The notes beneath the pieces are model-generated. The model worked only from the letters and a program-made list of their open reading frames with translations, was not told where the DNA came from and did no database searches. From the NCBI RefSeq assembly GCF_029581195.1, contig NZ_CP120737.1, forward strand, positions 4,441,001 through 4,505,000: 64,000 bases of DNA. The letters are read 5' to 3'. Both the position numbers and the translations under genes were made by a program. This stretch comes from Solwaraspora sp. WMMD791. Lineage in GTDB: Bacteria > Actinomycetota > Actinomycetes > Mycobacteriales > Micromonosporaceae. This document shows positions 9,082-34,471 of this stretch, in pieces. The number at the start of each line of letters is the position of its first letter. Positions within the stretch are counted from its first letter, which is position 1.

Positions 9082-9104
9082 CGGACGCTGGCTACTGCTG
9101 CCGG

Positions 9105-10899: not shown

Positions 10900-12165
10900 G
10901 TGATCGATCTCCGCCTGCTCCGTGACGACCCGGACCTCTTCCGTGCCAGCCAGCGTGCCCGCGGTGAGTCCGAGTCCCGGGTGGACGATCTGATCGCCAC
11001 CGACGAGGCCCGGCGTACGGCCGTGCAGGCGTTCGAGGCGTTGCGTGCCGAGCAGAAGCAACTCGGCAAGCGCCTGTCCCGGGCCGAACCGGCCGAGAAG
11101 CTTGAGCTGCTCGCCCGTACCAAGAGGTTGTCGGCGCAGGTGAAGGCGGCCGAGACCGCCGTGACCGAGGCCGAGCAGGCGCTACGCCGGGCGCAGTTGG
11201 CCTTCCCCAACCTGGTCGAGGCGGGCGCGCCGGCCGGCGGCGAGGACGACTACGTCGTGCTGCGCGAGGTCGGTGACCGGCCCGACATCGACAACCCCCG
11301 CGACCACCTGGCGATCGGCGAGGCGCTCGGCGCGATCGACGTCGAACGTGGTGCGAAGGTCTCCGGCAGCCGGTTCTACTACCTGACCGGCGTCGGCGCG
11401 CTGCTGCAACTCGGCCTGCTGCAGCTGGCCATCGCCCAGTCCGTCGAGTACGGCTTCACCCCGACGATCACCCCGGTGCTGGTCAAGCCGGAGTCGATGG
11501 AGGGCACCGGCTTCCTCGGCGAACACGCCAGCGAGATCTACCGGCTGGAAGCCGACGACCTGTACCTGGTCGGCACCAGCGAGGTGCCGCTGGCGGCGTA
11601 CCACTCGAACGAGATCCTGACTCTCGACGGCCCGCAGCGCTACGCCGGCTGGTCGTCGTGCTTCCGGCGCGAAGCCGGGTCGTACGGCCGGGACGTGCGC
11701 GGCATCCTGCGGGTGCACCAGTTCGACAAGGTGGAGATGTTCTCCTTCTGTCCGCCGGAGCAGGCCCACGAGGAGCATCTGCGGCTGCTCGCCTGGGAGG
11801 AGGAGATGCTGGCCAAGGTCGAGATCCCGTACCGGGTGATCGACGTCGCCGCCGGCGACCTCGGCACCAGCGCGGCCCGCAAGTACGACTGCGAGGCGTG
11901 GGTGCCGTCGCAGGGCCGCTACCGCGAGGTCACCTCCACGTCGAACTGCACCACCTTCCAGGCCCGCCGGCTGAACATCCGCTACCGCGACGGCGAGGGC
12001 CGTGTCCAGCCGGTGGCGACCCTCAACGGCACCCTGGCGACGACCCGGTGGCTGATCCCGATCCTGGAGAACCACCAGCAGCCAGACGGTTCGGTACGGG
12101 TGCCGAAGGCGCTGCAGCCGTACGTCGGCGGCCGCGACGTCCTGGAACCCCTGGCCACCGCCTGA
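10900..12165 (+). CDS. serS: Seryl-tRNA synthetase
   Basis: Charges tRNA-Ser. 421 residues with the N-terminal coiled-coil tRNA-binding arm (about 30-110, Glu/Lys/Arg rich) and the class II core: motif 2 [17 protein letters not shown] and the Ser-binding TSEVPLAAY, then motif 3 with [14 protein letters not shown]. The GTG at 10900 gives the standard [11 protein letters not shown] start, and TATCGT 8 bases upstream suggests a leaderless transcript. An esterase remnant follows. Confidence 0.96.
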
Positions 12166-12218
12166 CCGCTCCCTCTTGGCTGGGCGCAGCGGCGCAACTG
12201 GGGGTACGGCGGATACGG

Positions 12219-12817
12219 GTGGACGTGCCGTTCCGGCAGTTGCCGGTCGACCAGTCCGACGTCCGCTACCTGCACGGCCCTGATTCGCTCCGGCAGCCCG
12301 GCGTACCCGCCGGCCGGACCATCGAGTTCGGCTGGGCGGACAGCGCCGTCTACCCGGGTACGGCGCGGAAGTTCTGGGTGCACCTGCCGGCGCGTTACGA
12401 CCCGTCGCGCCCTGCTGCTCTGCTGGTGTTCCAGGACGGCTGGTGGAACCTGGACCCGGCCGGCGAGGTCCGTGGTGCCGTCGTCCTGGACAACCTGATC
12501 CACAGGGGCGACCTCCCCCCGATGATCGGTGTGTTCGTCGACCCTGGATCCATGCCTGACGGCGCTGGCGCTGGTGACGGCGCTGGTGGCGGCGGTAGCG
12601 GCCCTGGTGGCGGCGGTAGCGGCAGACCGGGCACCGGGACATCAACTGGAACGAGCCGGAGCACAACTGGCTCGCCAGCAACCTGCACGTCGCGGCCGCC
12701 CTGGCCCAAGCGGGGTACGACTTCCGGCTGGTGCTCGGCGACAGTGGGCACCACCCGAACCACCCCGGCGTGCTGCTGCCGGACGCGCTGCGCTGGCTGT
12801 GGCGACCCGAGCCATGA
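12219..12817 (+). pseudogene. Gutted alpha/beta-hydrolase (enterochelin-esterase-like) gene
   Basis: The 5' part (12219 to about 12560) encodes a recognisable esterase N terminus: AVYPGTARKFWVHLPARYD, LLVFQDGWW and PPMIGVFVDPG. The 3' part (about 12645-12817) in another frame encodes the C terminus DINWNEPEHNWLASN, FRLVLGDSGHHPNHPG and LPDALRWLWR, which includes the histidine region. The middle, which should carry the Ser nucleophile, is missing and is replaced by a short G-rich tandem repeat (about 12558-12625). Frame change plus loss of the nucleophile means it cannot encode an active esterase. Confidence 0.85.
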
Positions 12818-13107: not shown

Positions 13108-13633
13108 GCTCACTCCCCGGATGGCATACCCATTTGATCACCGACCTCCAAACCTCACCGGTTGCACCTGGCGCATTGACCCACAACCGGTAGCGATTGT
13201 CGGTTGTCAACGAACGCTCCCGGATGGCTCTTGGGGCGCTCACCTCCGGTCGGGGCGGTCGGCGAGTCACGCCGTCGGGCGTACCGGCTGATCGCAGCCG
13301 CAACCAGCGACCGACCGCGTACCGGCCGATCCGACCCTGGCAGGTGCGCAGCCACCGCTTCCCGACGGTCCTGCGGCGCGGCGGCGGCCTGGACCCCGGC
13401 GAGCAGAACGACCGGATCAAGGACGCCCTGCGCCGCTGGCAGTCCAGCAACGCCGCCGCAGCCGGCCCCTGAACCGGTATCCAGCGGCGGACACCGATGC
13501 CTGGTCAGTGTGCACGCGGTCTTCGCGCGGAAGTCATGGTCAGGTCACGGAACGCGAGGTACGGTTGCTGCCCCGTCGACCAAGGAGATCATCGACCAAG
13601 AGATCGTCGACCTTGGGGATCAAGGAGGACAGC
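13108..13633. other. 526-bp region without a convincing gene
   Basis: A few open frames of under 160 codons cross this stretch on both strands, but none has a recognisable domain, a good ribosome binding site or conserved-looking codon use. The most protein-like piece is on the plus strand and ends at 13472 (DPGEQNDRIKDALRRWQ), which may be a remnant. Near 13577-13624 three imperfect 15-16-bp repeats of the TCGACCAAGGAGATCA type lead into the AAGGAGG site of the next gene. Confidence 0.4.
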
Positions 13634-14515
13634 ATGCCGCGCCCCGGCCTACCCAAGCTGATCGCCACGGACCTTGACGGCACACTGGTCCGCAGCGACG
13701 AGACCGTCTCCGCGTACACCCATGAGGTGCTCGACCGTGCCCGGTCGCTCGGTATCCCGGTCGTCGGGGCGACCGGGCGCGGGCCCCGGCTGATGGAGTT
13801 GACCCGCAACGACATCCGGGCCGCCGACTACCTGGTGATGGCCGGCGGCGGCCGGGTGGTGGACCAGAGCGACCCGACCGGGGTACGGGTGCTGCGCGAC
13901 GAACGGCTGCCCGGCGACACCCTGGCCGAGATCATCACCCATTTGGAGGCGGCGGTCGGCCCGTTGACGGTGATGGTCGAGGCGTCCGACGAGCACGACG
14001 CCCCGCTGTGGGGCGACTTCGACCCGCACTGGCGCTACCCGGACCGGTTCGAGGCCCGTACCCGGGAGCAGTGCCTGTCCGGCGAGGTGATCAAGGCGTT
14101 CGCGCGGACCCCGTCGCACGACGTCGACGCGCTGCTCGCCGCCGCGATCCGGCTGATCCCGCCGACGCTGGCGACGGTCACCCAGGCCGGTCTCGGCTTC
14201 ATCGAGATCTGCCCACCCGGCGTGGACAAGGCCAGCGGGCTGTCGGTGGTCGCCGAGACCCTCGGCGTCGACCCGGCGGACGTCCTGGTCTTCGGCGACA
14301 TGCCGAACGACCTGCCGATGTTCGCCTGGGCCGGGTGGGGGCGGGTGGCGGTGTCGAACGCCCATCCGACCGTACGCCGAGCCGCCGATGAGATTACACT
14401 GCGTAATGACGATGACGGCGTAGCGATTTACCTGGATCGGTTAATGTCCGGTGATGGAAGTGCATCCACGCGTGGTCGCCACCGACCTCGACGGGACACT
14501 GCTGCGGCCCGATAA
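13634..14515 (+). CDS. HAD-superfamily Cof-type hydrolase (first copy)
   Basis: 293 residues of the Cof/haloacid dehalogenase family, probably a sugar- or nucleotide-phosphate phosphatase. Motif I is DLDGTLVRSD (nucleophile and acid Asp), motif II GATGRG, and motif IV FGDMPNDLPMF with K near KASGLSVV. AAGGAGG (13622-13628) precedes the ATG. The last 65 bases overlap the next gene in another frame and add an Arg-rich tail after the fold ends near IYLDRLM. Confidence 0.9.
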   Translation: MPRPGLPKLIATDLDGTLVRSDETVSAYTHEVLDRARSLGIPVVGATGRGPRLMELTRNDIRAADYLVMAGGGRVVDQSDPTGVRVLRDERLPGDTLAEIITHLEAAVGPLTVMVEASDEHDAPLWGDFDPHWRYPDRFEARTREQCLSGEVIKAFARTPSHDVDALLAAAIRLIPPTLATVTQAGLGFIEICPPGVDKASGLSVVAETLGVDPADVLVFGDMPNDLPMFAWAGWGRVAVSNAHPTVRRAADEITLRNDDDGVAIYLDRLMSGDGSASTRGRHRPRRDTAAAR

Positions 14516-20134: not shown

Positions 20135-22405
20135 ATGGCCCGTTCCGCCCCTCGAGACGACGCCGGTGACCGCGACCTGACCGTCGGCGAGCCGGCGACC
20201 AGCGCGGCCGGGCTGCCGGGCGTCACCCACGCGCTGCGCGCCGGCGTCGCGCAGATGGGGGTACGCCGTACCGCGCTCACCCTGGCCCGGGTGAACCAGC
20301 CCGGCGGCTTCGACTGCCCCGGCTGCGCCTGGCCGGAGCCGGCCGCGCGGCACCGCGCACACGCCGAGTTCTGCGAGAACGGCGCCAAGGCGGTCGCCGA
20401 GGAGGCGACGCTGCGCCGGGTCACCCCGGAGTTCTTCGCCGCCCACCCGATCAGCGAACTCGCCACCCGCTCCGACCACTGGCTCGGCCAGCAGGGCCGG
20501 CTCACCCACCCGGTGGTCCGCCGCCCCGGTACCGACCATTACACGCCGATCGACTGGGACGAGGCGTTCAGGCTGATCGCCGACCAGCTGCGGGCACTCG
20601 ATTCCCCGGACCGGGCCGCCTTCTACACCTCGGGCCGCACCTCCAACGAGGCCGCGTTCCTCTACCAGCTGTTCGCCCGGTCGCTCGGCACCAACAATCT
20701 CCCGGACTGCTCCAACATGTGCCACGAGTCGTCCGGGGTGGCGCTGCTCGGCACCATCGGCATCGGCAAGGGGTCGGTCACCCTCGACGACCTGCACCGG
20801 GCCAAACTGATCGTGGTGGTCGGGCAGAACCCGGGCACCAACCACCCCCGGATGCTGTCCGCCCTGGAGAAGGCAAAACGCGACGGGGCCACCATCGTCG
20901 CGGTCAACCCGCTACCCGAGGCCGGGCTGATGCGGTTCCGCAACCCGCAGCGCCCCGGCGGGCTGGTCGGGGCCGGCACCCCGCTGGCCGACCACTTCCT
21001 GCAGATCCGCATCGGCGGCGACCTGGCTCTGTTCCGGGCGATCGGTGCCCTGCTGGTCGCCGCCGACGCGGTCGACGCCGACTTCGTCGACACCCACACC
21101 ACCGGGTACGCCGAGTACCGCGCCAGCCTCGACGAGCTCGACTGGTCAGCGGTGACCGCCGCCACCGGGCTGGACCGGGCCCAGATCGTCGAGGTCGCGA
21201 AGCTGTTCGCCGACTCCGAGGCGACCATCGTCTGCTGGGCGATGGGGCTGACCCAGCGGCAGGACTCCGTCGACGCGATCCGCGAGATCGTCAACGTGCA
21301 ACTGCTGCGCGGCATGATCGGCAAGCCGGGTGCCGGCCTCTGCCCGGTCCGTGGGCACTCCAACGTGCAGGGCGACCGCACCATGGGCATCTGGCACGAG
21401 CCGCCGGCCTGGTTGCCGGCGCTGGGCCGGCAACTCGGCGTACCGATGCCGACCGCGACCGGGTTGGACACCGTCGGCGCGATCCGGGCGATGCGCGACG
21501 GCGACGTCCGCGTGTTCATGGCCCTCGGCGGCAATTTCGCCGCCGCCAGCCCGGACACCGCCGTGACCGAGGCCGCCCTGGCCTCGTGCGCGCTGACCGT
21601 GCACGTGTCGACCAAGCTGAACCGTTCGCACGTGGTGCCCGGCGAGACCTCGCTGATCCTGCCCTGTCTGGGCCGCACCGAACGGGACCGGCAGGCCGGC
21701 GGCGAGCAGTTCGTCACGGTCGAGGACTCGATGTCGGCGGTGCACGCCTCCCGGGGCCGGCTCGCCCCGGCCAGCGACCAGCTGCTCTCCGAGGTGGCGA
21801 TCGTCGCCCGGCTGGCCCGCGCCACGCTGCCCGACTCTCCGGTGCCGTGGGAGGCGTACCAGGCCGACTATCCGACGATCCGGGCCACCATCGCAGGGTC
21901 GGTGCCGGGCTTCGCCGACTTCGAGCGCCGGGTGGCCGCACCGGACGGTTTCGTCCTGCCGCACCCGCCCCGCGACCGGCGCACCTTCGCCACCGCGTCG
22001 GGCAGGGCCGCGTTCACGGTCAGCTCGTTGACGGTGATCGAGGTGCCGCCGGGTCGGCTGCTGCTGCAGACGATGCGCAGCCACGACCAGTACAACACCA
22101 CGATCTACGGGCTCGACGACCGTTACCGGGGGATCCGGGGCGGGCGGCGGGTGGTCTTCGTGCACCCGGACGACCTGGCCGCGCTCGGGGTCGCCGACGG
22201 TGACGTCGTCGACCTGGTGTCGGAGTGGTCCGACCAGGTCGAACGCCGGGCGAAGGCGTTCCGGGCGGTGAGCTATCCGACGGCGCGTGGCTGCGCGGCG
22301 GCGTACTTCCCGGAGGCGAACGTGCTGGTGCCGTTGGACTCGACGGCCGCCGGTTCGAACACCCCGACGTCGAAGCAGATCGTCATCCGTCTGGAGCGGG
22401 CCTGA
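20135..22405 (+). CDS. FdhF/YdeP-type molybdopterin oxidoreductase
   Basis: A 756-residue cytoplasmic Mo/W-bisPGD enzyme of the YdeP subgroup of formate dehydrogenase-like proteins. It has GFDCPGCAWPEP near residue 65, AAFYTSGRTSNEAAFLYQ, LPDCSNMCHESSGVALLGTIGIGKGS, and GHSNVQGDRTMGIW, with a C-terminal molydopterin-dinucleotide domain (LLLQTMRSHDQYNTTIYG). YdeP-type proteins lack the canonical N-terminal Fe-S/SeCys arrangement, and the substrate is not known. GAGGCT lies 6 bases before the ATG. Its last 23 bases overlap the convergent DUF6457 gene; fdhD is encoded 11 kb away. Confidence 0.9.
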   Translation: MARSAPRDDAGDRDLTVGEPATSAAGLPGVTHALRAGVAQMGVRRTALTLARVNQPGGFDCPGCAWPEPAARHRAHAEFCENGAKAVAEEATLRRVTPEFFAAHPISELATRSDHWLGQQGRLTHPVVRRPGTDHYTPIDWDEAFRLIADQLRALDSPDRAAFYTSGRTSNEAAFLYQLFARSLGTNNLPDCSNMCHESSGVALLGTIGIGKGSVTLDDLHRAKLIVVVGQNPGTNHPRMLSALEKAKRDGATIVAVNPLPEAGLMRFRNPQRPGGLVGAGTPLADHFLQIRIGGDLALFRAIGALLVAADAVDADFVDTHTTGYAEYRASLDELDWSAVTAATGLDRAQIVEVAKLFADSEATIVCWAMGLTQRQDSVDAIREIVNVQLLRGMIGKPGAGLCPVRGHSNVQGDRTMGIWHEPPAWLPALGRQLGVPMPTATGLDTVGAIRAMRDGDVRVFMALGGNFAAASPDTAVTEAALASCALTVHVSTKLNRSHVVPGETSLILPCLGRTERDRQAGGEQFVTVEDSMSAVHASRGRLAPASDQLLSEVAIVARLARATLPDSPVPWEAYQADYPTIRATIAGSVPGFADFERRVAAPDGFVLPHPPRDRRTFATASGRAAFTVSSLTVIEVPPGRLLLQTMRSHDQYNTTIYGLDDRYRGIRGGRRVVFVHPDDLAALGVADGDVVDLVSEWSDQVERRAKAFRAVSYPTARGCAAAYFPEANVLVPLDSTAAGSNTPTSKQIVIRLERA

Positions 22406-23347: not shown

Positions 23348-25117
23348 TCACCGACAGCTACGGCCGGTGTTGATGCACTTGGCGATCTTCCGCATCTGCT
23401 TCTCGGAGTTGACGTTGATGAAGTCGTTGTGGTCCGAGAACGGGTTGTGGTCCTCCTCCGGGAAGGAGTCGAGCAGATACTGGCCCTTGAGCTGGACGTC
23501 GCGCGGGATGTCGTACGCGATGGTGATGCGCAACTGGGGGATCGCCACGAAGCCGCTCGGGCAGGCCCCGGTGGTGGCGTCGGCGAACGACAGATGCGAC
23601 CGGTGGTTCTCACTGTCGATGTTCTCGCCGTCCCAGCAGCCGGGGAAGTCGTGCACCCGCAGAACCTGGCTGCCGTCCGGGCAGATCGGGTACTTGCCGG
23701 CGAGCCGGTCCTCGAAGCCGGAACAGGTCCAGCTGTTGCGGGCGTTCGCCGGGCCCCGGCTGATCGGCTTCGAGTCACCGGTCAGCGCGCGTAGGAACCG
23801 GGGCATCGGGGTGACCTTGCTGGCGGGGTTGCCCCGGTACTCGATGCGCACCTCGGCGGGTCGGACGATCTCGCCGGTGTTGCCGGGCAGTTCCAGGTTC
23901 GGGCCGGACGGCACCGGCAGCTCCGCCGCCTCCCCGCCCTGGCCGGGGTTGTCGCCAGCGTTGCCGTTGCCGTTGTCGTCGTTGCCGCCGGCGTCGTTGC
24001 CGGGGTTGCCGGCCAGGGTGCAGCCGGCCAGTGGCGTCAGGTTGGTCGGCCGCGCGGCGTTGCGGCCAATCGCGATCTCGATCCGGTCGAGCGTGGCGAA
24101 CCGCTTGTCCCGCAGCGGCCCCAGGATCGCGTTGTCGATGAAGTTCGGGCCGCCCTGCCCGGCCGTGGTGACCAGACGTGCGTTGGCCTCGGCGATCTGC
24201 TGGTCCAGCAGCTGCAGGTTCCGGTCCACCTCGGCGGCTGCCTGCGGCGGCACCGCAGGCAGCCGGTCCCGGACACCGGGGCAGTCCACGGTCGGTGTGG
24301 CGAGCGGACTCACCGTCGCCGCGCTGCCGGAGTGCCCGCCGTGCGTCCCGCCGTAGTAGACGGCACAGTCGACCATCGACACCATCCCGGTCGGCCGGGC
24401 GCCGTGCCGGCCGAGTTCGGTGGCGATCCGCTTCAGGGTCTCGGCGCGGCGGACCCGCAACCAGTCCAGCACCGCGTTGTTGCGGCGCACGTCGATGCCC
24501 TCGCTGCCGGCCAGCCGCCGGTTCGCCTCGGCGATCTGTTCGTCGAGCGCGATGAGGCCACGCCGGACCTCGACGACTGCCGGGGACGGCACCGACGGCA
24601 GCCGGTCGATGGCCCGTGGGCAGGCGACCGTCGCCGGGCCGGGGTCCGCAGCCTGGTGCCGGACGGACCGGTCGATCCGGACCACCGGCCAGAAGTACGA
24701 CGACCGGTCGCCGTTGCGGCACGTCGTGTCGGAAGCGGCCAACGCTTCGTCGCTGGTGTCGGCGGTGATCGCCAGGTTGCCGACGAAGTCGTGCAGGTGC
24801 TCGGCGCCGTGGCTGATGCCGGGCTGCGCCACCGGGTTGTCGGAGCTGAACTTGCCGTTGGCGTTCACTCCGCAGTCGACGGTGAACACGCCGGTGGACG
24901 CGTTGCGGCCGGGCGCAATCGCGACCACGTTCGGTGCGACGTTCTGGATGCGGACGAAGTCGTCCAGGCCGACCTCGGCGGCGGCGGTGTTGCGTCCGCC
25001 ACCGGAGACGAAGGTGACTGTCGCGACAGCACCGATGCTCACCACGGCTATCGACAACGTGACGGCTCGGGCCTTGCCGGTTCCGATCGATCGGAACCGG
25101 CCCGGTGATGTTCTCAT
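23348..25117 (-). CDS. Secreted DUF1996 protein with a duplicated insert
   Basis: 589 residues with an N-terminal signal/membrane segment (about 18-38) ending near TAAAEVG. DUF1996 is recognisable by SHGAEHLHDFVGN (about 100-112), SSYFWPVVR and the C-terminal VHDFPGCWDGEN, DSENHRSHLSF and NPFSDHNDF. Between the halves of the domain lie two copies of a module of about 95 residues (T-V-x-C-P...DRLP-V-P, LD-QIAEAN-RL, ...ARPT...), each with paired cysteines. DUF1996 proteins are secreted in actinobacteria and fungi with unknown enzymatic role; this one is probably extracellular or anchored. Confidence 0.82.
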   Translation of the reverse strand: MRTSPGRFRSIGTGKARAVTLSIAVVSIGAVATVTFVSGGGRNTAAAEVGLDDFVRIQNVAPNVVAIAPGRNASTGVFTVDCGVNANGKFSSDNPVAQPGISHGAEHLHDFVGNLAITADTSDEALAASDTTCRNGDRSSYFWPVVRIDRSVRHQAADPGPATVACPRAIDRLPSVPSPAVVEVRRGLIALDEQIAEANRRLAGSEGIDVRRNNAVLDWLRVRRAETLKRIATELGRHGARPTGMVSMVDCAVYYGGTHGGHSGSAATVSPLATPTVDCPGVRDRLPAVPPQAAAEVDRNLQLLDQQIAEANARLVTTAGQGGPNFIDNAILGPLRDKRFATLDRIEIAIGRNAARPTNLTPLAGCTLAGNPGNDAGGNDDNGNGNAGDNPGQGGEAAELPVPSGPNLELPGNTGEIVRPAEVRIEYRGNPASKVTPMPRFLRALTGDSKPISRGPANARNSWTCSGFEDRLAGKYPICPDGSQVLRVHDFPGCWDGENIDSENHRSHLSFADATTGACPSGFVAIPQLRITIAYDIPRDVQLKGQYLLDSFPEEDHNPFSDHNDFINVNSEKQMRKIAKCINTGRSCR

Positions 25118-25244: not shown

Positions 25245-25910
25245 CTAGGGCCGCAGCTCGCCGAACCAGCGTCCATCGACGCGGAACAGGTCGCCCACGG
25301 TCAGGCCGCTGCCGGCGGCGGTGTCCCGTACCGCCGCGACGTCCAGGCGCGCCCACTGGAAGACCGGCCCCGGTCGGGGTCGGCCACGTCGGGCCACAGT
25401 GGCCACGTACGCGTGCCCACGCCACAGCCCCACGCCGGGCGGCTCCAGCTCGACCAGCACGGTCCCCCGCGAGTGGATCAGCGTGCGGCAACGGCGCAAC
25501 AACGCGACCGGGTCGCCGCCGATGCCGATGTTGCCGTCGAGCAGGACGGCATGCGCCCACCGGCCCTCACCGGGCAGCCGGGCGAACAGGTCCTGGTGGA
25601 TCGCGACCACGCCACGGGACCGGGTCGAGGCGACCGCCTGCGCCGAGACGTCGACCCCGAGTGCGGTCACTCCGGCCCGGGCCAGAGCGGCGGTGACCCG
25701 ACCCGGCCCGCAGCCGAGATCGAGCGTCGGGCCACCGCAGCGGGCCACCACCGCCTCGACCGCCGGCTCGGCCGCACCGTGCCACCGCCGTACCGGCAGT
25801 CGCCGCCGCGTCCCGTCACCCTGCACCAGCCAGTGCCCGCCGGGCACGACGGCCCCGAGCGGAGCGACGAAGCCGCTGTCGGCAGCCCGCTGCCGGACGC
25901 CGATGGTCAC
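25245..25910 (-). CDS. Class I SAM-dependent methyltransferase
   Basis: 221 residues with the SAM-binding motif LDLGCGPGRVT, the acidic D in ALGVDVSAQAV and the later GTVLVELEPPG. The last gene of the three-gene minus-strand operon: its GTG start overlaps the stop of the preceding gene as GTGA. The substrate is unknown; partners suggest a glycosylated or lipid-linked metabolite (inference). Confidence 0.85.
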   Translation of the reverse strand: MTIGVRQRAADSGFVAPLGAVVPGGHWLVQGDGTRRRLPVRRWHGAAEPAVEAVVARCGGPTLDLGCGPGRVTAALARAGVTALGVDVSAQAVASTRSRGVVAIHQDLFARLPGEGRWAHAVLLDGNIGIGGDPVALLRRCRTLIHSRGTVLVELEPPGVGLWRGHAYVATVARRGRPRPGPVFQWARLDVAAVRDTAAGSGLTVGDLFRVDGRWFGELRP

Positions 25911-26608
25911 CGATCGGCCTCGGCAGCCATCGCCGGCCGGGCCCGCCACACCGCCGCGACCTGGCGGGCGAACCGGCTGTCCGGCACGCGCCGCGCCACG
26001 GCCACCGCGTCGGGCCACTCGTCCACGTCCCGCAGCGCCGGCAGGCGGGCCGGGGCCAGCCCGCGACCCCGCAGAGCAAGCCAGGTGCGGTGCCCGGTGT
26101 CCGGGGTGGACATGGGTACGGTCCGGAGCACGTCCGCGTCGCGCGGATCCCGCAGGCCCAGCGCCCACCAGCCTCCGTCGGCGGCCGGGCCGAGCACCGC
26201 ACCGGCGTCGGTCAACAGATCGACGGCCGACGCCAACCGCGCGGGCGTCAGCTGTGGCGTGTCCATCCCGATCTGCAGCACCTGCCGCTCCGGGTAGGCG
26301 GCCGCCACGTCGGCGTGTGCGTTCGCCAACCGGTCGGCGAGCCCGGCACCCCGCTGCGCCAGCACCCGCCAGCCGCCGGTCGCCGCCGCCAGCTCGGCGG
26401 CCGTAGCGGCGGAGACGTCGGCGTCGGCGAGCCGACCGGCCAGGGCCAGCACCGGCTCGACCCCGGCGGTGTCCCGTACCGCCGCCATCGTGTCCAGCAG
26501 CGCCGCCGCCGCGATCCGGGCCGCATCGGCCGGCGTCGCCGGTGGGCAGAGCCGGGTCTTCACCAGCCCGGCGACCGGCGACTTCGCCATCACCAGCAGG
26601 ACGGTCAC
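25907..26608 (-). CDS. TIGR04282-type (DUF2064) nucleotidyl/glycosyl transferase
   Basis: 233 residues of the family annotated as arsenosugar biosynthesis glycosyltransferase (TIGR04282), which has a nucleotidyltransferase GT-A fold: LLVMAKSPVAGLVKTRL at the N terminus, IGMDTPQLTP in the active centre and GPAADGGWWALGL. It lies between a GT2 gene and a methyltransferase gene, with 4-base GTGA overlaps at both ends, so the three proteins are made together. No arsenic gene is near, so the family name should not be taken as its function. Confidence 0.85.
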   Translation of the reverse strand: MTVLLVMAKSPVAGLVKTRLCPPATPADAARIAAAALLDTMAAVRDTAGVEPVLALAGRLADADVSAATAAELAAATGGWRVLAQRGAGLADRLANAHADVAAAYPERQVLQIGMDTPQLTPARLASAVDLLTDAGAVLGPAADGGWWALGLRDPRDADVLRTVPMSTPDTGHRTWLALRGRGLAPARLPALRDVDEWPDAVAVARRVPDSRFARQVAAVWRARPAMAAEADR

Positions 26609-27279
26609 CGGGCGTTGCCCACCGTACGCAGCACGCCGACGAAGTCCCGGGTCGCGCGGTACGTGCCCCGCACGGATCCGGAGACCTTCGACCGGGTGCC
26701 CGCCGCCCGTGGCGCGTACCGGACGTCCAGCTCGACGATCCGCCAGCCGGCACCCGCCGCCCGGACCAGCAGCTCCAGCGGGTAGCCGAACGCCCGGTCG
26801 GTCACCCCGAGGTCCAGTAGCGCCTGCCGGCGGGCCACCCGGATCGGGCTCAGATCCCGCAGCGGTACACCCCGGTGCCGCAGCAGCGCCGCGACCAGCG
26901 CGGTGCCGACGCGGGCATGCCAGGGCCAGGCCGACACCGAGACCGGCCGGCGGCGGCCGACGGCCAACTCCGCCCGGCCGGCCGCCACCGGCTCGACCAG
27001 CGCCGGAAGTTGCCGAGGGTCGAACGAGCCGTCCGCGTCCAGGACGCACACCAGCTCGGTGGTGGCGGCCAACAGGCCGGTGTGGACGGCCGCTCCGTAT
27101 CCACGGCGGGGCTCGTGCACGACCCGGGCCCCGTGCGCTGCCGCCACCTGCGGCGAGCCGTCCCGGGACCCGTTGTCGACGACGATCGCCCGGTAGCCGG
27201 GCGGCAGGGCGGTGAGTACGCCGGGCAGGGCGGCGGCCTCGTCGAGGCAGGGCAGCACCACGTCGATCGGTGTCGGCAT
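26605..27279 (-). CDS. Family 2 glycosyltransferase
   Basis: 224 residues with the GT2 fold: VVLPCLDEAAALPGVL, VDNGSRDGSP, the metal-binding D-A-D in VLDADGSFDP and the late RVARRQALL-LG segment. It has no membrane tail. First gene of the minus-strand operon; TAGCGT (27292-27287) ends 7 bases before ATG 27279, a leaderless pattern. The promoter faces the membrane-protein gene across the CTTACG repeats. Probable substrate is a polyprenyl-phosphate sugar acceptor (inference). Confidence 0.88.
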   Translation of the reverse strand: MPTPIDVVLPCLDEAAALPGVLTALPPGYRAIVVDNGSRDGSPQVAAAHGARVVHEPRRGYGAAVHTGLLAATTELVCVLDADGSFDPRQLPALVEPVAAGRAELAVGRRRPVSVSAWPWHARVGTALVAALLRHRGVPLRDLSPIRVARRQALLDLGVTDRAFGYPLELLVRAAGAGWRIVELDVRYAPRAAGTRSKVSGSVRGTYRATRDFVGVLRTVGNAR

Positions 27280-27326
27280 ACCGCCGACGCTAGGGCGTGC
27301 CACCACCGTCCGGTGGCCCGTAGGTG

Positions 27327-27372
27327 CTTACGGAATCCTTACGCGACGGTCGGTTCTTACGGCTCCCTTACG
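27327..27372. promoter_or_regulatory. Two pairs of 11-bp-period CTTACG direct repeats
   Basis: CTTACG occurs at 27327, 27338, 27356 and 27367. Within each pair the copies are 11 bp apart (CTTACGGAATCCTTACG and CTTACGGCTCCCTTACG), the spacing typical of OmpR/PhoB-type response regulators. The site lies between the GT2 operon (minus) and the membrane-protein gene (plus), about 39 bases upstream of the latter's TACGGT -10. A matching pair is found at 29956-29972. Confidence 0.75.
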
Positions 27373-27425
27373 GCCGCGTCGCCACCCATCGACGGGCCCA
27401 CCGCAGGCCGTACGGTGCGCGAATC

Positions 27426-28805
27426 ATGATGTCCACTCCCTCGCCGACCGCCGTGCGGCGGCCCGCCCGCGCCGACCTGATCGTGCTCGGTGTCGAACTG
27501 GCCCTGATCGCCACCGCCGTCGTGGTCGGGGTGGTCCTCAACCGGCGCGGCGTCGGCCTCTACGCCGAGACCGCCCCGATCTACGCCTTCTGGCGGCCAC
27601 ACGTCGGCTGGGGTACGCCGGTCGCGGTGGCCATCGCGGTGGTCGTGGTGGTCTGGGGCGTACGGTGGGCGCGGACCGCCCGCTGGGGTCCGTTGCTCGG
27701 CGTCGGCTACCTCGCCGCCGTCGCCTGGACCCTGGCCCTGGCGCTGGTCGACGGCTGGTCCGTCGGGGTCGCCAAGCGGCTCACCAACCAGGCGGAGTAC
27801 CTGCACGAGGTGCACCGGATCACCGACATCCCCGCGATGCTGGCCGGCTTCAGCGGACGGATCGTCGACTTCCAGCCGGAATCGTGGTCGACGCACACCG
27901 CCGGTCATCCCCCCGGCGCGCTGCTGGTCTTCGTCTGGCTGGACCGCATCGGCCTCGGCGGCGGTGCCGCGGCCGGCCTGGCCTGCATCCTGATCGGCGC
28001 GACCATGGTGGTCTCGATCCCGGCGGCGCTGCGTTGGCTCGGTGCGGCCGACGCCGCCCGTACCGTCCTGCCGTTCCTGGTGCTGCTGCCCGGAGCGGTC
28101 TGGATCGGCGCCTCCGGCGACGGCGTCTTCACCGGTGTCGTCGCCGCCGGGCTGGCGCTGCTCGCCGCCCGGCATCCGGTCGCACCGCTCGCCGGTGGCG
28201 TCCTGCTCGGCTTCGCGCTCTACCTGTCGTACGGGTTCGTCCTGATCGGACTGCTCGCCGTCGCGGTACTGGTGCTGCGGTCCGGCCGGTTCCTGCCGGC
28301 GCTGCTCACCGCCGCAGCCGGGGTCGCCGCCGTGGTCGCCACCTTCACCGTCGCCGGTTTCTGGTGGTGGGACGGCTACCAGCTGGTCGTGGTGCGCTAC
28401 TACCAGGGGTGGGCCGCCGAACGTCCGTACGCCTACTGGGTCTGGGCGAACCTGGCCGCGATGCTGCTCTCCGCCGGGCTGGTCGCCGGCCCGGCGCTGC
28501 GCCGCACGATCGTCGCGGCCCGCCACGCCTGGCGCGGCCCGGCCGGCGACGGCACGGTGGCGCGCGGATGGCGGTACGCCGTGACCCGGCCCACGATCCT
28601 GCTGCCGCTCACCGCCGCGCTGGCGATCGTCGCGGCCGACCTGTCCGGGTTGAGCAAGGCCGAGGTCGAACGGATCTGGCTGCCGTTCGTCGTCTGGCTG
28701 CTGATCGCCACCGCCCACCTGCCGGCGCGCACCCACCGGTGGTGGCTGGCCGGGCAGGCGGTGACCGCGCTGGCGGTCAACCACCTGCTGCTCACCTTCT
28801 CCTGA
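27426..28805 (+). CDS. Polytopic membrane protein, probable GT-C-type glycosyltransferase
   Basis: About 460 residues with roughly ten hydrophobic helices. The first extracytoplasmic loops hold acidic and aromatic residues (YAETAPIYAFWRPH) and the loop THTAGHPPG, a pattern seen in GT-C family transferases that use lipid-phosphate sugars. Family assignment is tentative. ATG 27426 or 27429; TACGGT (27411-27416) is 9 bases upstream. It is divergent from the GT2 operon and shares its repeat operator. Confidence 0.65.
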   Translation: MMSTPSPTAVRRPARADLIVLGVELALIATAVVVGVVLNRRGVGLYAETAPIYAFWRPHVGWGTPVAVAIAVVVVVWGVRWARTARWGPLLGVGYLAAVAWTLALALVDGWSVGVAKRLTNQAEYLHEVHRITDIPAMLAGFSGRIVDFQPESWSTHTAGHPPGALLVFVWLDRIGLGGGAAAGLACILIGATMVVSIPAALRWLGAADAARTVLPFLVLLPGAVWIGASGDGVFTGVVAAGLALLAARHPVAPLAGGVLLGFALYLSYGFVLIGLLAVAVLVLRSGRFLPALLTAAAGVAAVVATFTVAGFWWWDGYQLVVVRYYQGWAAERPYAYWVWANLAAMLLSAGLVAGPALRRTIVAARHAWRGPAGDGTVARGWRYAVTRPTILLPLTAALAIVAADLSGLSKAEVERIWLPFVVWLLIATAHLPARTHRWWLAGQAVTALAVNHLLLTFS

Positions 28806-28840
28806 TCTGTACCGCGCCCCACGCCTCGGTCGTCGGCGGG

Positions 28841-29905
28841 TCAGCCGACGCCGACCGCCGGTGCCCGCAGCGGATCGGTGGCGAACGCGGCCACCCCGTC
28901 GGCGAACCGGACGCTCGCGGTGAAGCCGAGCAGTTCGGTGGCGCGGCGGGGATCGGCCACCACGTGCCGTACGTCGGCCGCCCGGGCACCGCCGACGATC
29001 ACCGGCGCAGGTCCGCCCATCGCCGTGGCCAACGTCCCGGCGAGCTCGCCGACGGTCCGGGGCTCGCCGGAGCAGACGTTCAACGGCACCAGGTCGCCCA
29101 CCGGCGGCTCGGCGACCAACGCCCGGACGTTGATCCGAGCGACGTCGGCGACGTGGACGAAGTCGCGTTGCTGCCGACCGTCCTCCAACACCTGCGGCGG
29201 CCGGCCGTCGGCCAGCGCCGACCGGAAGATCGAGGCCACCCCGGCGTACGGGGTGTCGCGCGGCATCCGAGGGCCGTACACGTTGTGGTAGCGCAGTGCC
29301 CAGCAGCCGCCGCCGGTCTGGCGGGCCCACGCCGCAGCCAGATGTTCCTGGGCGAGCTTCGTCGCCGCGTACGTGCTGCGCGGCTCCAGCGGCGCGTCCT
29401 CCGGGACCGTCGTCCACGACAACGCGTCGCCGCAGCGGGGGCAGCCCGGGTCGTACCGGCCGACAGCCAGGTCCGCCGGGCGGCGCGACTGCGGCCGTAC
29501 GACGCCGTGCCGGCCGCAGGTGTACCGGCCCTCGCCGTACACCACCATCGAGCTGGCCAGCACCAGCCGCGTCACCCGGGCCCGGTGCATCGCGGCGAGC
29601 AGGACCGCGGTGCCGTAGTCGTTGTGGCCCGCGTATCCGGGGGCGTCCGACGGGTCGAGGCCGTGGCCCACCATCGCCGCCTGGTGGCAGACCGCGTCCA
29701 CGCCGGGCAACAGCCGGTCGAGCAGCCCGCCGTCGCGGACGTCGCCACGGACCAGGTCGTGCCGACTGGTCCACTCGGGAGGTTCGCCACCGTGGGCCTG
29801 CGGCAGCAGCGCGTCCAACGCCAGCACCTCGTGCCCGTCGTCGACCAACAGGTCGGCGATGTGCGAACCGATGAACCCGGCCGCGCCGGTGAGCAGTATC
29901 CGCAT
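28841..29905 (-). CDS. NAD-dependent nucleotide-sugar epimerase/dehydratase
   Basis: 354 residues of the extended SDR family: GAAGFIGSH at the N terminus, the catalytic SSMVVYGEG, and YAATKLAQE (Y-x3-K), then RYHNVYGPRMPRDTPYAGVASIF and VHVADVARIN. An insertion after VVYGEGRYTCGRHG includes CPRCG, which together with the earlier Cys could bind zinc; dTDP-rhamnose 4-epimerase-like actinobacterial relatives carry such inserts. TACGGT (29917-29912) lies 6 bases before the ATG, so it is probably leaderless. It is divergent from the Moco oxidoreductase gene. Confidence 0.87.
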   Translation of the reverse strand: MRILLTGAAGFIGSHIADLLVDDGHEVLALDALLPQAHGGEPPEWTSRHDLVRGDVRDGGLLDRLLPGVDAVCHQAAMVGHGLDPSDAPGYAGHNDYGTAVLLAAMHRARVTRLVLASSMVVYGEGRYTCGRHGVVRPQSRRPADLAVGRYDPGCPRCGDALSWTTVPEDAPLEPRSTYAATKLAQEHLAAAWARQTGGGCWALRYHNVYGPRMPRDTPYAGVASIFRSALADGRPPQVLEDGRQQRDFVHVADVARINVRALVAEPPVGDLVPLNVCSGEPRTVGELAGTLATAMGGPAPVIVGGARAADVRHVVADPRRATELLGFTASVRFADGVAAFATDPLRAPAVGVG

Positions 29906-29955
29906 CCGGTCACCGTACGGCCGGTCGCGGCCGGCGAGCACCGCCAGTGTTTCCG

Positions 29956-29972
29956 CGTAAGGAATCCGTAAG
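29956..29972. promoter_or_regulatory. CGTAAG direct repeat, same operator as at 27327
   Basis: CGTAAG at 29956-29961 and 29967-29972 is the reverse complement of CTTACGGATTCCTTACG, one base different from the pair at 27327-27343. It lies between the epimerase (minus) and the Moco oxidoreductase (plus), 35 bases upstream of the plus-strand TAGCCT at 30007-30012, almost the same offset as at the first site. Confidence 0.7.
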
Positions 29973-30055
29973 CGCCGGAGCGGCCGTTCCGGCCGGTCGC
30001 GACGATTAGCCTGCTGGCACCCGGTCGGTACCGAGACCGTCCCGAGGAGACAATC

Positions 30056-31336
30056 GTGCCTGTCGACGAACCCGCACCAGCGCCGCCACCGCCGCCGCCG
30101 GCCGCCGGTGCCGCCGGCTCCACGGAGGCCACCGGCGCCACCGTGCTCGTCCGGTGGCGCAGCCCGCTGCGCGGGGCCTGGCTGACCTCGGTCCTCGGCG
30201 CCGTCCTGCTGGTCGGTCTGCCGCTGGTCATCGTCACCGGGCTGCTCGACCACGTCGCCTACGGGCCGCAGGCGATGCCGGCCGACGTGGGCTGGCTGCG
30301 GCTGCCGCCCTTCGACTGGCCGACCCGGCCGTCCTGGCTGTTCCGGGTCAGTCAGGGCCTGCACGTGGCTCTCGGCATCGCACTGGTCCCGGTGATCCTG
30401 GTCAAACTCTGGTCGGTGATTCCGAAGCTGTTCGCCTGGCCGCCGGTCCGCTCGGCGGCACACGCGCTGGAACGCATTTCCCTGCTCCTGCTCGTCGGCG
30501 GCATCCTGTTCCAGACCGTCACCGGCGTGCTCAACGTGCAGTACGCGTACCTGTTCGGTTTCGACTTCTACACCGCCCACTACTTCGGGGCCTGGGTGTT
30601 CACCGCCGCGTTCGTCGTCCACGTCGCGCTCAAGCTGCCCCGGATGATCGCCGTACTGCGGTCCCGACCCGACCGCGCCGAGCCCGACGAGTTGGTCGCA
30701 CCGCGCTCCGGTCCGGCGACCATCAGCCGGCGCGGGCTGCTCGCCCTGACCGGCGGCGGGTCGCTGCTGCTGGCCGTGACGACGGTCGGGCAGAGCCTCG
30801 ACGGCCCGTGGCGGCGACTCGCGTTCCTGCTGCCCCGGGGCCAACAGCCCGACGATGGTCCGAACGGCTTCCCGGTCAACCGGACGGCGGCCGCCGCCGG
30901 CATCCGGCACGCCGACACCGGCCCGGACTGGCGGCTGGAGCTGCGCGACGCCGCCGGCCGGACGGTACGGCTGGACCGTGACCAGTTGCTCGCCATGCCG
31001 CTGCACACCGCCCGGCTGCCGATCGCCTGCGTGGAGGGCTGGTCGACGCTGCAGACCTGGACCGGCGTACGGCTGCGTGACCTCGCCGCCCTCGCCGGGG
31101 TGCCGGAGCCGACGTCGGCCCTGGTCCGCTCGATCCAGCGCGGCGGACTGTTCAACAAGGCCATCCTGCAGCGCAACCAGGTCCTCGACGGTGACTCGCT
31201 GCTGGCCCTGCGGGTCAACGGGGTCGATCTGTCACCGGACCACGGCTTCCCGGCCCGGATCATCGTGCCCGCACTGCCCGGGGTGCGGTGCACGAAATGG
31301 GTACGCGCCATCGAGTTCCAGGGACCGCGCCGATGA
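30056..31336 (+). CDS. Membrane cytochrome b-like / sulfite-oxidase-type Moco oxidoreductase
   Basis: 426 residues. A Pro-rich N terminus precedes four hydrophobic helices with histidines in helices (QGLHVALGIA and VVHVALKLPR) that could ligate haem b, then a twin-Arg-like SRRGLL plus hydrophobic stretch. The C-terminal domain is the sulfite-oxidase/YedY Moco fold with the molybdenum-binding cysteine in PIACVEGWS (about C324) and the FPARIIVPALPGVRCTKWV end. The catalytic domain is probably outside the membrane and passes electrons to or from the membrane haem part. GAGGAG precedes the GTG by 8 bases. First of three coupled genes. Confidence 0.85.
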   Translation: MPVDEPAPAPPPPPPAAGAAGSTEATGATVLVRWRSPLRGAWLTSVLGAVLLVGLPLVIVTGLLDHVAYGPQAMPADVGWLRLPPFDWPTRPSWLFRVSQGLHVALGIALVPVILVKLWSVIPKLFAWPPVRSAAHALERISLLLLVGGILFQTVTGVLNVQYAYLFGFDFYTAHYFGAWVFTAAFVVHVALKLPRMIAVLRSRPDRAEPDELVAPRSGPATISRRGLLALTGGGSLLLAVTTVGQSLDGPWRRLAFLLPRGQQPDDGPNGFPVNRTAAAAGIRHADTGPDWRLELRDAAGRTVRLDRDQLLAMPLHTARLPIACVEGWSTLQTWTGVRLRDLAALAGVPEPTSALVRSIQRGGLFNKAILQRNQVLDGDSLLALRVNGVDLSPDHGFPARIIVPALPGVRCTKWVRAIEFQGPRR

Positions 31337-31815
31337 CCCGATTCAGGTACGGCGCACCGCTCTGGCAGCTACCGCTGCTGGTCGGCTGTTTCACCGTCGC
31401 CGGGTGGGTCGTCGCGCGCCTGTCCGGTGAGGCCACGGCCGTACGGATGGCGGTCTGGTTCGTGGCCGCGGTCGTCGCCCACGACCTGATCCTCTATCCG
31501 CTCGCGGCGGCGGCCGACCGGGTCCTGGTCGCCGTCGCCGGCATCGGCGGCCGGCTCCGACCTGCCGTACGGCGGGCGATCGTGAACCACGTCCGGGTCC
31601 CGACGCTCGGCGCGGCGCTGCTGTTCCTCGTGTACCTGCCGGGCATCCTGCGGCTCGGCGACGGTGCCTTCACCCGCGCCACGGGCCTGACCCAGGAGCC
31701 GTACCTGCGCCGCTGGCTGCTGGTCAGCGCGGCGATGTTCGCCGCCAGCGGCCTGCTGGCCGCCGCGCGGCTGACGCTGCACCGCCGCGACCGCGGCGGT
31801 AGTTTGACCGGATGA
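31333..31815 (+). CDS. Small membrane protein of the Moco operon
   Basis: 160 residues with four predicted hydrophobic helices (about 10-26, 40-65, 90-110, 133-155). Its ATG overlaps the stop of the Moco oxidoreductase gene as ATGA, and its own stop overlaps the VOC gene, so the three are translated together. No family was recognised; it could be a membrane subunit of the oxidoreductase (inference). Confidence 0.75.
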   Translation: MTRFRYGAPLWQLPLLVGCFTVAGWVVARLSGEATAVRMAVWFVAAVVAHDLILYPLAAAADRVLVAVAGIGGRLRPAVRRAIVNHVRVPTLGAALLFLVYLPGILRLGDGAFTRATGLTQEPYLRRWLLVSAAMFAASGLLAAARLTLHRRDRGGSLTG

Positions 31816-32165
31816 TCGGACGACTCTCGGCGGTCGTGCTCGACTGCCCGGACCCGCAGCGGCTGGCCCGGTTCTACTGCGAGCTGCTCGGGTACGAGAT
31901 CACCCGGGTCGACGGAAGTTGGATCGACATCTCCGACGGCGACGGCCCACGGATCAGCTTCCAGCACGCCCCCGACCACCAGCCGCCCCGCTGGCCGGAC
32001 CCGGCCCGGCCGCAGCAGATCCACCTGGACGTGCGGGTCGACGACATCGACCGTGCGGAGCAGGCCGTGCTCGCGCTCGGCGCCACCAAGCTCTCCGACG
32101 TCGAGCCGGGCTTCCGGGTGTACGCCGACCCCGCCGGCCACCCGTTCTGCCTCGAATTCGACTAG
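31812..32165 (+). CDS. VOC (glyoxalase/bleomycin-resistance fold) protein
   Basis: A single 117-residue VOC module: LSAVVLDCPDPQRLARFYCELLG, IHLDVRVDDIDRAEQAVLALGA and the closing FRVYADPAGHPFCLEF with the glutamate common to metal-binding VOC members. It is coupled by ATGA to the membrane protein. A 21-bp repeat begins at its own last codons. The reaction is unknown. Confidence 0.88.
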   Translation: MIGRLSAVVLDCPDPQRLARFYCELLGYEITRVDGSWIDISDGDGPRISFQHAPDHQPPRWPDPARPQQIHLDVRVDDIDRAEQAVLALGATKLSDVEPGFRVYADPAGHPFCLEFD

Positions 32166-33324: not shown

Positions 33325-33589
33325 GATCGGCTTGACTCTCCTCAGGCTGCGACGTCGGCCACCAGACTCGGCGTCAACCTGGCGGCCACGGGTACCTCCG
33401 CGCATCCATGGATTGCGATCCAGCGTACGGGAGAAGGCACCGAGCGAGGCCCCCTGCCGCACAGATGCACCACGGATGCCTCATCGCACCGCCGGCCGTA
33501 CCGCCGGCCACATCCTGACCGGTGTCCCGCCGGCCGGGATGGGTCGGACCGGTGGGCTGTCGACCTAGGTCGGCGGCAGGATGGGTGGC

Positions 33590-34471
33590 ATGGGCAGGGC
33601 GAGTGAACGCCGCACGGTGCTGCGGATCGAGGTCGGCAACGACAGTGGCGCCGCCGGCACGGACGGATCGACGCGGCAGGTACGCCGGATGGACACCGTC
33701 GCCGGGGAGGAGCCGCTGGAGATCCGGGTCGGGCCGGCCGGACCGGCCCGGCGGCGTCCGCTGGCGGTCACCATGCGTACGCCGGGCAACGACATCGACC
33801 TGGCGATCGGTTTCCTGCTCACCGAAGGGCTGATCGGGGCGGCCGACGACGTGGTGACCGCCCAACTGTGCGCCGGCACCGACACGCCGAACACGTACAA
33901 CGTCGTCGATGTGACCCTCGCCGGGCACGTGCCGCCGCCGGAGACGGACCCGGCCCGCAACTTCTACACGACCAGTTCGTGCGGGGTGTGCGGCAAGGCG
34001 AGCATCGACGCGGTGCGCACCCGGTCCCGGTTCGACGTCGCCGCCGACCGGTTCGACCTGGATCCGTGGCTGCTGGCAGCGCTGCCGGACCGGCTGCGCG
34101 CCGCCCAGCAGGGCTTCGACCGCACCGGCGGGCTGCACGCCGCCGGTCTGTTCACCACCGACGGGCAGGTACGCGTGGTCCGCGAGGACGTCGGCCGGCA
34201 CAACGCCGTCGACAAGGTGGTCGGCTGGGCCGCCCGGGAGGGGCTGCTGCCGCTGCGGGGTCATCTGCTGCTGGTCTCCGGCCGGGCCAGTTTCGAGCTC
34301 ACCCAGAAGGCGTGGATGGCCGGCATTCCGGTGCTGGCCGCGATCTCCGCGCCGAGCAGTCTGGCGGTCGCCCTCGCCGAGGAGGCGGGGATGACCCTGG
34401 TCGGGTTCCTCCGCGACGCGACGATGAACGTCTACGCAGGCGCGGACCGGTTGGCGCAGCCCCTGGGTTGA
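33590..34471 (+). CDS. fdhD: FdhD sulfurtransferase for formate-dehydrogenase-type enzymes
   Basis: FdhD carries sulfur from a cysteine desulfurase to the Mo-bisMGD cofactor of FdhF-type enzymes. 293 residues with [23 protein letters not shown], the sulfur-carrying cysteines in [34 protein letters not shown] and [16 protein letters not shown], all family signatures. ATG 33590 is preferred over 33581 because the family starts with the MGRA-type sequence. The FdhF-type enzyme at 20-22 kb is the likely client. Confidence 0.95.

Follow-up and report, generated by a model that had tools for sequence, protein, structure and literature searches.

What does a bacterium make with a run of eight reading frames in which glycosyltransferase, epimerase and methyltransferase genes stand beside a membrane oxidoreductase of the molybdenum cofactor (Moco) type, and are these genes under one control? 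The run occupies positions 25245-32165 of the window, that is, the whole stretch of 64,000 nt from Solwaraspora sp. WMMD791 that was analysed (NZ_CP120737.1, 4,441,001-4,505,000; genome of 6,929,721 bases). We read the cluster, with a probability of roughly two in three, as making a 5-deoxy-5-methylthio-pentofuranose of the MTX type and attaching it to some glycan of the envelope that is not lipoarabinomannan (LAM), with the Moco oxidoreductase and a two-component system belonging to the same system. A preliminary description of this DNA had held that no known pathway combines such parts; the core (GT2, GT-C, DUF2064 and epimerase) instead appears by homology to be, in outline, the MTX pathway known from Mycobacterium tuberculosis, at 46-61% identity to the corresponding locus of Mycobacterium nebraskense.

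The eight frames are:

25245-25910, minus strand: MT, an S-adenosylmethionine-dependent methyltransferase (Pfam Methyltransf_25, 34.9 bits), a conserved cluster member
25907-26608, minus strand: DUF2064, a TIGR04282-like protein of nucleotidyltransferase fold (PF09837, 99.6 bits; TIGR04282, 122.3 bits, cut-off 134)
26605-27279, minus strand: GT2, an MtxS-like putative polyprenyl-phosphate-sugar synthase (PF00535; ArnC/DPM synthase profile; 61% to M. nebraskense)
27426-28805, plus strand: TM459, an MtxT-like putative GT-C membrane glycosyltransferase of 459 residues, by predicted fold (a second ATG lies at 27429)
28841-29905, minus strand: EPI, a GalE-like NAD-dependent epimerase/dehydratase (PF01370, 152 bits), proposed as a ribo-to-xylo epimerase
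30056-31336, plus strand: MOCO, a membrane haem-b/Moco oxidoreductase of the Sco3746 kind (PF00174, 87.5 bits; sulfite-oxidase fold)
31333-31815, plus strand: SMP160, a small membrane protein of 160 residues and MOCO partner, present at 58 of the 59 named MOCO loci
31812-32165, plus strand: VOC, a glyoxalase-like gene (PF18029) overlapping SMP160 by 4 bases, not a conserved member of the cluster

MT, DUF2064 and GT2 thus face TM459, while EPI faces MOCO, SMP160 and VOC, and 4-base overlaps occur at four same-strand junctions, as the preliminary description had it. Its count of seven to eight genes in two divergent sets stands for seven genes and their families (25245-31815, two divergent pairs of units) and fails for VOC as a conserved eighth.

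The glycan core and the mycobacterial MTX locus

In M. nebraskense the genes run menE - TM459 - DUF2064 - GT2 - two genes - EPI - MTAP - menA - fabH, MTAP being 5'-methylthioadenosine phosphorylase. Identities of the window proteins to this locus are 46% (TM459), 49% (DUF2064), 61% (GT2) and 57% (EPI), with 56% for the unlinked MTAP of the Solwaraspora genome; taking the better of the window and Rhodococcus opacus queries they become 58, 58, 65, 65 and 67% for TM459, DUF2064, GT2, EPI and MTAP. The order, strands included, matches what we take to be that of M. tuberculosis, namely rv0542c (menE), rv0541c, rv0540, rv0539, rv0538, rv0537c, rv0536 (galE3), rv0535 (pnp), rv0534c (menA) and rv0533c (fabH). 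Two frames inside the M. nebraskense locus (11175-12785, minus, and 13217-14512, plus, of our extract L160) match no Pfam or NCBIfam family.

According to PMC8780516, MtxT is Rv0541c and MtxS is Rv0539. As would be expected of homologues of these, GT2 is 61% identical to the GT2 at the syntenic M. nebraskense place, and TM459 is 46% identical to the protein beside menE there and is predicted to have a GT-C fold; their activities would then be those of MtxS and MtxT. The solved structures nearest to GT2 by profile are ArnC and DPM synthase. At E 0.01 TM459 falls into none of the Pfam or NCBIfam families, and its fold assignment as GT-C comes from an AlphaFold2 model (pLDDT 83.1, pTM 0.89): 28 of the 30 top Foldseek matches were GT-C enzymes or chains of GT-C-containing complexes (ArnT, AglB, STT3, AftA, PimE, Pmt, ALG), with probabilities mostly of 0.95-1.00, modest TM-scores (0.20-0.50 by query) and a single match at E≤0.001 (ArnT, 6.9e-4). 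The earlier idea of a sugar-modified lipid or metabolite built together with redox chemistry at the membrane was roughly right, and the polytopic membrane protein it left general can now be specified as a GT-C glycosyltransferase fold.

The DUF2064 protein scores 39.3 bits with the CofC guanylyltransferase model and is also related to 3cgx, a putative nucleotide-diphospho-sugar transferase. Its 122.3 bits on TIGR04282 might suggest an arsenosugar pathway, after the NCBI names of TIGR04282 and TIGR04283, an explanation that we consider very improbable and reject: this score is under the TIGR04282 cut-off of 134, GT2 reaches 41.4 bits on TIGR04283 where the cut-off is 182, and the phosphorylase linked to such clusters is MTAP, although no search aimed at ArsM or the radical-SAM enzyme ArsS was made. 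Among papers naming DUF2064, TIGR04282 or PF09837, judged by title, nothing bore on the point, and a literature search that mostly did not extend to subscription papers found no account of this gene combination outside mycobacteria.

According to the accessible parts of a PNAS 2024 paper (PMC11127046), the MTX donor derives from 5'-methylthioadenosine, and whether the MTX reaction occurs at all outside LAM assembly is unclear. MTAP is linked in 19 of the 40 TM459 loci of our class sample (described below), across many lineages and gene orders, and is unlinked in most Micromonospora loci; in the window genome it lies elsewhere (G000:C1:3556472; 306.8 bits, TIGR01694 cut-off 274.85). MtnA would feed methylthioribose-1-phosphate into methionine salvage. 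It was found in 7 of the 15 cluster genomes searched (the window genome included, and one match below cut-off) and not in the other 8, which include M. nebraskense. We weighed whether the glycan core attaches some other pentofuranose or a deoxysugar, its likeness to the MTX locus extending to family level only. The unlinked MTAP of the window and of most Micromonospora loci would fit this, as would the breadth of the GT2, epimerase and DUF2064 families and a GT-C protein just 46% identical to the mycobacterial one; against it stand four genes that, at 46-61% identity, are also neighbours where a mycobacterium has its mtx genes, and an MTAP that is part of the cluster in many lineages and in varied gene orders. 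We judge another sugar distinctly unlikely, and keep to a methylthio-pentose.

The acceptor would differ from that of M. tuberculosis in many hosts. Emb (PF04602, the one arabinan enzyme family searched) was absent from 12 of 18 hand-picked cluster-bearing genomes, the window genome included, and present in six (M. nebraskense, Williamsia, Rhodococcus, Actinomycetospora, Pseudonocardia and genome G170). Because PF04602 is absent, the acceptor in those 12 genomes cannot be an Emb-made arabinan, and we do not class the system as LAM capping.

Conservation and linkage of the gene set

Searching the genome collection with MOCO as query left 80 loci; close relatives make up 59 of them (L058-L116), with titles including Micromonospora, Asanoa, Rhodococcus, Pseudonocardia, Actinomadura, Actinomycetospora, Williamsia, Mycobacterium, Sporichthya, Frankiales and others. 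A profile search of these 59, many on cut contigs, found SMP in 58, EPI in 41, MT, GT2 and DUF2064 in 36 each and TM459 in 33. From the genomes in which TM459 had not been seen beside MOCO, or was weak or distant (L096, L104), we took 18; 16 of these have a TM459-like gene, four with weaker scores (three Actinomadura and the metagenome-assembled genome of L109).

Sampling the class independently of MOCO gave the same association. At 150 bits or more, 47 of 148 class genomes have TM459, 56 have a membrane-type MOCO and 35 have both (Fisher P 5e-10, kinship ignored), and in 26 of these 35 the two genes are less than 10 kb apart. From 55 class genomes with a TM459 match we sampled 39 (40 loci), mostly the stronger matches. 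Around these 40 loci we counted GT2 37 times, DUF2064 36, MT and EPI 33 each, MOCO 26, response regulator (RR) 22, histidine kinase (HK) 21, MTAP 19 and SMP 12, all lower bounds since contig ends cut several sample windows. Across 97 loci, a set that draws also on the repeat-picked regions described below, we counted 46 gene orders, some of them produced by contig ends; the genes stay together though their order varies.

Score cut-offs for gene presence, and for the promoter-window counts below, were set by hand, and two controls bear on them. In 150,779 bases of the window's own genome outside the cluster, where five of the loci are RR paralogues by choice, TM459, GT2, DUF2064, EPI, MT, MOCO and HK were all absent at the cut-offs. 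Because only RR genes reached them, the RR count alone tells little, and HK serves better as a marker. In an earlier control of 29 loci RR appeared twice and MTAP once; it is weaker than the own-genome control, as 21 of its loci are mostly from other phyla, 7 were added once known to be cluster-free, and L241 was taken for its MTAP.

In all 7 genomes examined, MT has a single match above 190 bits, the next best being at most 33 bits. In two genomes of one genus (G249 and G233) MT abuts or overlaps MOCO while TM459 is elsewhere, G233 having a menE-flanked MTX locus (L239); MT and MOCO can therefore travel as one module. VOC adjoins the cluster in two loci of the same genus (L174, L175). By tblastn it had a single match among L058-L116, 9 kb off in L062 and not beside the cluster, and in L173 a relative with 43% identity is found some 2.7 kb away from the epimerase; VOC was rejected as a cluster member.

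Several neighbours and stray occurrences were recorded on the way. The cluster is flanked by a second molybdopterin oxidoreductase (PF00384 + PF01568, window 20135-22405) and an FdhD/NarQ protein (33581-34471). Next after MT lies a DUF1996 protein (23348-25117, minus), with relatives near the cluster in L174, L175, L181 and L189, which may be a loose associate. A protein of 145-228 residues (our cluster c9; 12718-13155 in L088, this copy without a Pfam match) recurs in Rhodococcus and Frankiales clusters. One contig titled Candidatus Melainabacteria (L112) has a MOCO-SMP-GT2 run 43-59% identical to that of the window, probably by mis-binning.

The Moco oxidoreductase and its small partner

MOCO has the features of the Sco3746 family: haem-ligand histidines, an internal twin-arginine motif and a C-terminal Moco domain, here with an MsrP-like CVEGWS centre. 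Of 100 homologues, 97 share His103, His175, His189, Arg225 and Cys325 (the remaining three are gapped there) and 96 share Arg226. For the segment around the cysteine the best solved match is 1xdq, YedY (CVEAWS for CVEGWS, E 2.2e-4), sulfite oxidases aligning mostly beyond the cysteine. Assignment as a sulfite oxidase or dehydrogenase was rejected, with scores far under the equivalog cut-offs (SoxC 42.9/420, SorA 28.8/600, SorT 22.5/570 bits); MOCO is also no member of the MsrP equivalog (29.7/207 bits), though it would work like MsrP. The available part of an eLife 2017 paper describes Sco3746 as having five transmembrane (TM) segments, two predicted b haems and a twin-arginine motif before TM5, likens it to MsrP-MsrQ, and shows Tat-dependent translocation with Sco3746 fusions. 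A divergent MOCO, 40-46% identical to that of the window, lies within the cluster in L173, L181, L182, L185, L186, L188 and L189. Neither Pfam nor NCBIfam has a family that SMP160 matches at E 0.01, and a fold assignment was abandoned (model pLDDT 76.7, pTM 0.50; no PDB match at E≤0.001).

On what would MOCO act? The accessible text of PMC8531672 calls MTX a "hallmark" of M. tuberculosis LAM, which contains both MTX and its sulfoxide MSX, and the title of a cited reference names a carbohydrate as natural substrate of an M. tuberculosis methionine sulfoxide reductase. PMC9912281 gives NMR shifts of about 2.1/17 ppm for SCH3 and about 2.8/40 ppm for S(O)CH3. In view of the LAM sugars and the cited title, MOCO acting on sugar sulfur is the most economical reading, and from its linkage and family it probably does so. 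MOCO and SMP160 might instead form an extracytoplasmic methionine-sulfoxide reductase that serves envelope proteins in general, merely co-regulated with the cluster under oxidative or envelope stress. This would suit the MsrP-like centre and the likening of Sco3746 to MsrP-MsrQ (eLife 2017, as far as available), as well as the 21 of 148 genomes with MOCO and no TM459 and the M. nebraskense MOCO, which lies elsewhere, apart from the MTX genes; yet the MOCO-TM459 proximity noted above for 26 of 35 genomes occurs in many gene orders, and the linkage holds even for the divergent MOCO. On balance we find a protein reductase rather unlikely.

MOCO might also act on the sugar in the opposite direction, as an S-oxidase making the sulfoxide. 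That MTX and MSX are both found in M. tuberculosis LAM (PMC8531672, accessible text), and that the sulfite-oxidase fold includes oxidising enzymes, speak for this; the MsrP-like motif and membrane haems are better suited to electrons delivered from the quinone pool, and we hold an oxidase to be unlikely, somewhat more so than a protein reductase. A reductase of the sugar sulfoxide thus stays our preference.

Operator repeats and promoters

The two divergent promoter regions contain these elements, the -10-like hexamers being predictions picked by eye:

27287-27292, minus strand: GT2 -10-like hexamer TAGCGT, 7 bases 5' of the ATG
27327-27343, plus strand: operator copy 1, exact repeat, CTTACGGAATCCTTACG
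27356-27372, plus strand: operator copy 2, exact repeat, CTTACGGCTCCCTTACG
27411-27416, plus strand: TM459 -10-like hexamer TACGGT
29912-29917, minus strand: EPI -10-like hexamer TACGGT, 6 bases 5' of the ATG
29956-29972, minus strand: operator copy 3, exact repeat, CTTACGGATTCCTTACG
30007-30012, plus strand: MOCO -10-like hexamer TAGCCT

The three CTTACG-N5-CTTACG repeats, already noticed in the preliminary description, prove to be the only exact sites in the whole genome, where the reversed control pattern has none. With up to two mismatches the window has 5 sites where 1.47 are expected (5 were reached in 1 of 100 shuffles), and the genome has 93 against 117 for the control pattern; degenerate sites are therefore at chance level and only near-exact ones are informative, and a genome-wide regulon of two-mismatch repeats was rejected. 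The distances to the plus-strand -10 given earlier, 39 and 35 bases, hold as differences between coordinates (27372 to TACGGT at 27411; 29972 to TAGCCT at 30007). Read towards each gene, the motif is CTTACG at the TM459 and EPI promoters, 38 bases from the -10-like hexamer, and CGTAAG at the GT2 and MOCO promoters, 34 bases from it. At GT2 and EPI the hexamer is 6-7 bases ahead of the ATG, resembling leaderless genes, and the GT2 transcript may possibly be leaderless; a loose pattern, applied without a control, found such spacing at 48 of 85 GT2 and 49 of 85 EPI genes.

The repeat recurs in relatives. Counting sites with up to two mismatches in loci that were not chosen for the repeat (the 20 repeat-picked regions described next being excluded), we found them in 66 of 147 cluster promoter windows of MOCO-selected loci (for coding windows the count is 1 of 1132, and for windows upstream of non-cluster genes 1 of 290) and in 35 of 133 promoter windows of TM459-selected loci against 4 of 1144 coding windows; the windows are partly double-counted where divergent promoters share one intergenic region, and many loci are closely related. 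Site distance from the profile start is often fixed (GT2 63-64, EPI 67-69, RR 72-77). Among same-genus genomes, 5 of 6 others have an exact repeat, in all five inside this cluster (L174-L178). From the sites of a family draw we picked by eye 20 regions holding an exact repeat: 11 have most of the cluster (L182 without TM459), five have no cluster gene, and the rest have MT and MTAP only (L183), RR and HK only (L191), or a weak RR or RR/HK only (L179, L190). The proposal that gene set and repeats are conserved together is thus borne out in part of the relatives and fails in others, to which we return below.

The two-component regulator

Many relatives carry genes for an OmpR-type RR and its kinase within the cluster or next to it. 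The corresponding RR of the window's own genome (G000:C1:3367812-3368513) lies 1.1 Mb from the cluster; it shares 73% identity with the RR that is linked to the cluster in L058, full-length-matched paralogues being at most 49%, and is part of an apparent operon whose first gene has a DM13 domain. About 48 bases before this operon lies one of the genome's two one-mismatch sites. The other (CTCACGATCCACTTACG, at 537337) is at or inside the start of an apparently unrelated gene and was taken as chance. A direct repeat of 11-bp period thus stands upstream both of the cluster genes and of the regulator, as in an OmpR/PhoB-type regulon, and a single regulator of this type for both divergent units, as had been predicted, is well supported by the arrangement of genes and sites. 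The DM13 protein heading the operon (8553-9137, minus, of extract L240) carries what is an electron transfer domain.

Proposed pathway

By family, MTAP would convert 5'-methylthioadenosine to methylthioribose-1-phosphate, from which DUF2064 would form the nucleoside diphosphate sugar; EPI would invert one centre, from ribo to xylo. GT2, by its homology and place, would load the sugar onto polyprenyl phosphate, and TM459, on the same grounds, would transfer it to an acceptor outside the cytoplasmic membrane. There MOCO, as an MsrP-MsrQ-like fusion with its Moco domain exported via Tat, may alter the oxidation state of the sugar sulfur, more likely from sulfoxide to thioether with electrons of the quinone pool, perhaps together with SMP160. 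The OmpR-type system would switch both divergent units, and its own operon, by binding the CTTACG-N5-CTTACG sites.

A number of observations weigh against this pathway. Its chemistry and its acceptor glycan are predicted from genes, and the match to the M. tuberculosis gene order is presumed. MTAP is unlinked in the window and the genome has MtnA, so that the role of MTAP may be in methionine salvage; the proposed steps assign no role to MT. At the 150-bit cut-offs MOCO occurs without TM459 in 21 and TM459 without MOCO in 12 of the 148 genomes, and in L170 and L234 a weak TM459 match stands without any other gene of the cluster. The RR profile cut-off is unspecific (five own-genome paralogues pass it). 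Measured by what the preliminary description itself named as refuting, relatives that keep the genes but not the repeats, no site within two mismatches is found in 33 of 58 and 35 of 53 loci with cluster genes; the operator is therefore not universal, and many lineages have a drifted or altered motif. Of the 150 genomes of the family draw (own included), 40 contain the exact repeat and 19 the control pattern.

Were the pathway correct, methylthio-pentose could tentatively be viewed as an ancient and widespread envelope trait of actinobacteria, redox-switched by an MsrP-MsrQ-like enzyme under an OmpR-type system (SCO3740/SCO3741 in Streptomyces coelicolor), with DUF2064 as the missing nucleotidyltransferase for 5-substituted pentose-1-phosphates; we put this wider view at well below even odds. 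The cluster makes the question of MTX outside LAM raised in the accessible part of the PNAS 2024 paper (PMC11127046) testable in harmless laboratory actinobacteria such as Streptomyces, and offers candidates for the nucleotidyl transfer, epimerisation and sulfur redox steps that lack assigned enzymes in the cited papers, as well as a possible substrate for the Sco3746 family. If soil actinobacteria indeed carry MTX, it is worth checking how specific MTX-based tuberculosis tests are.

Comparison with known systems

SCO3740/SCO3741 of S. coelicolor, an unnamed entry in the portion of the review PMC9739842 available, is likewise an OmpR-type RR-HK pair, with locus numbers near that of SCO3746; inferring the S. 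coelicolor order from numbering, it fits the EPI-HK-RR-GT2-DUF2064-MT-SMP-MOCO-TM459 order of five class-sample loci, and the cluster would be a candidate regulon for this two-component system. Sco3746 itself, dual-inserted by Sec and Tat, shares with MOCO the twin-arginine motif before the last TM segment, the C-terminal Moco domain and three conserved histidines; the available text of eLife 2017 names no substrate for it and does not use the word "operon", whereas MOCO is tied to a methylthio-sugar cluster. With MsrP/MsrQ (YedY/YedZ) MOCO has in common the CVExWS sequence around the Moco cysteine and a haem membrane partner; unlike them it is one fused chain, linked to glycan genes, and its proposed substrate is a sugar sulfoxide.

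Another close system is MTX capping of LAM in M. tuberculosis, with which the cluster shares GT2, GT-C, DUF2064 and epimerase and, in the mycobacterial locus, MTA phosphorylase, and whose polyprenyl-phosphate donor and GT-C transfer (PMC11127046, accessible part) are as proposed here. It differs in that the window genome is without Emb, in the extra MT, MOCO, SMP160 and two-component system, and in the often unlinked MTAP. Identified here in outline is a putative MTX-type methylthio-sugar route to which a Moco module has been added, and many of the bacteria that have it are without Emb.

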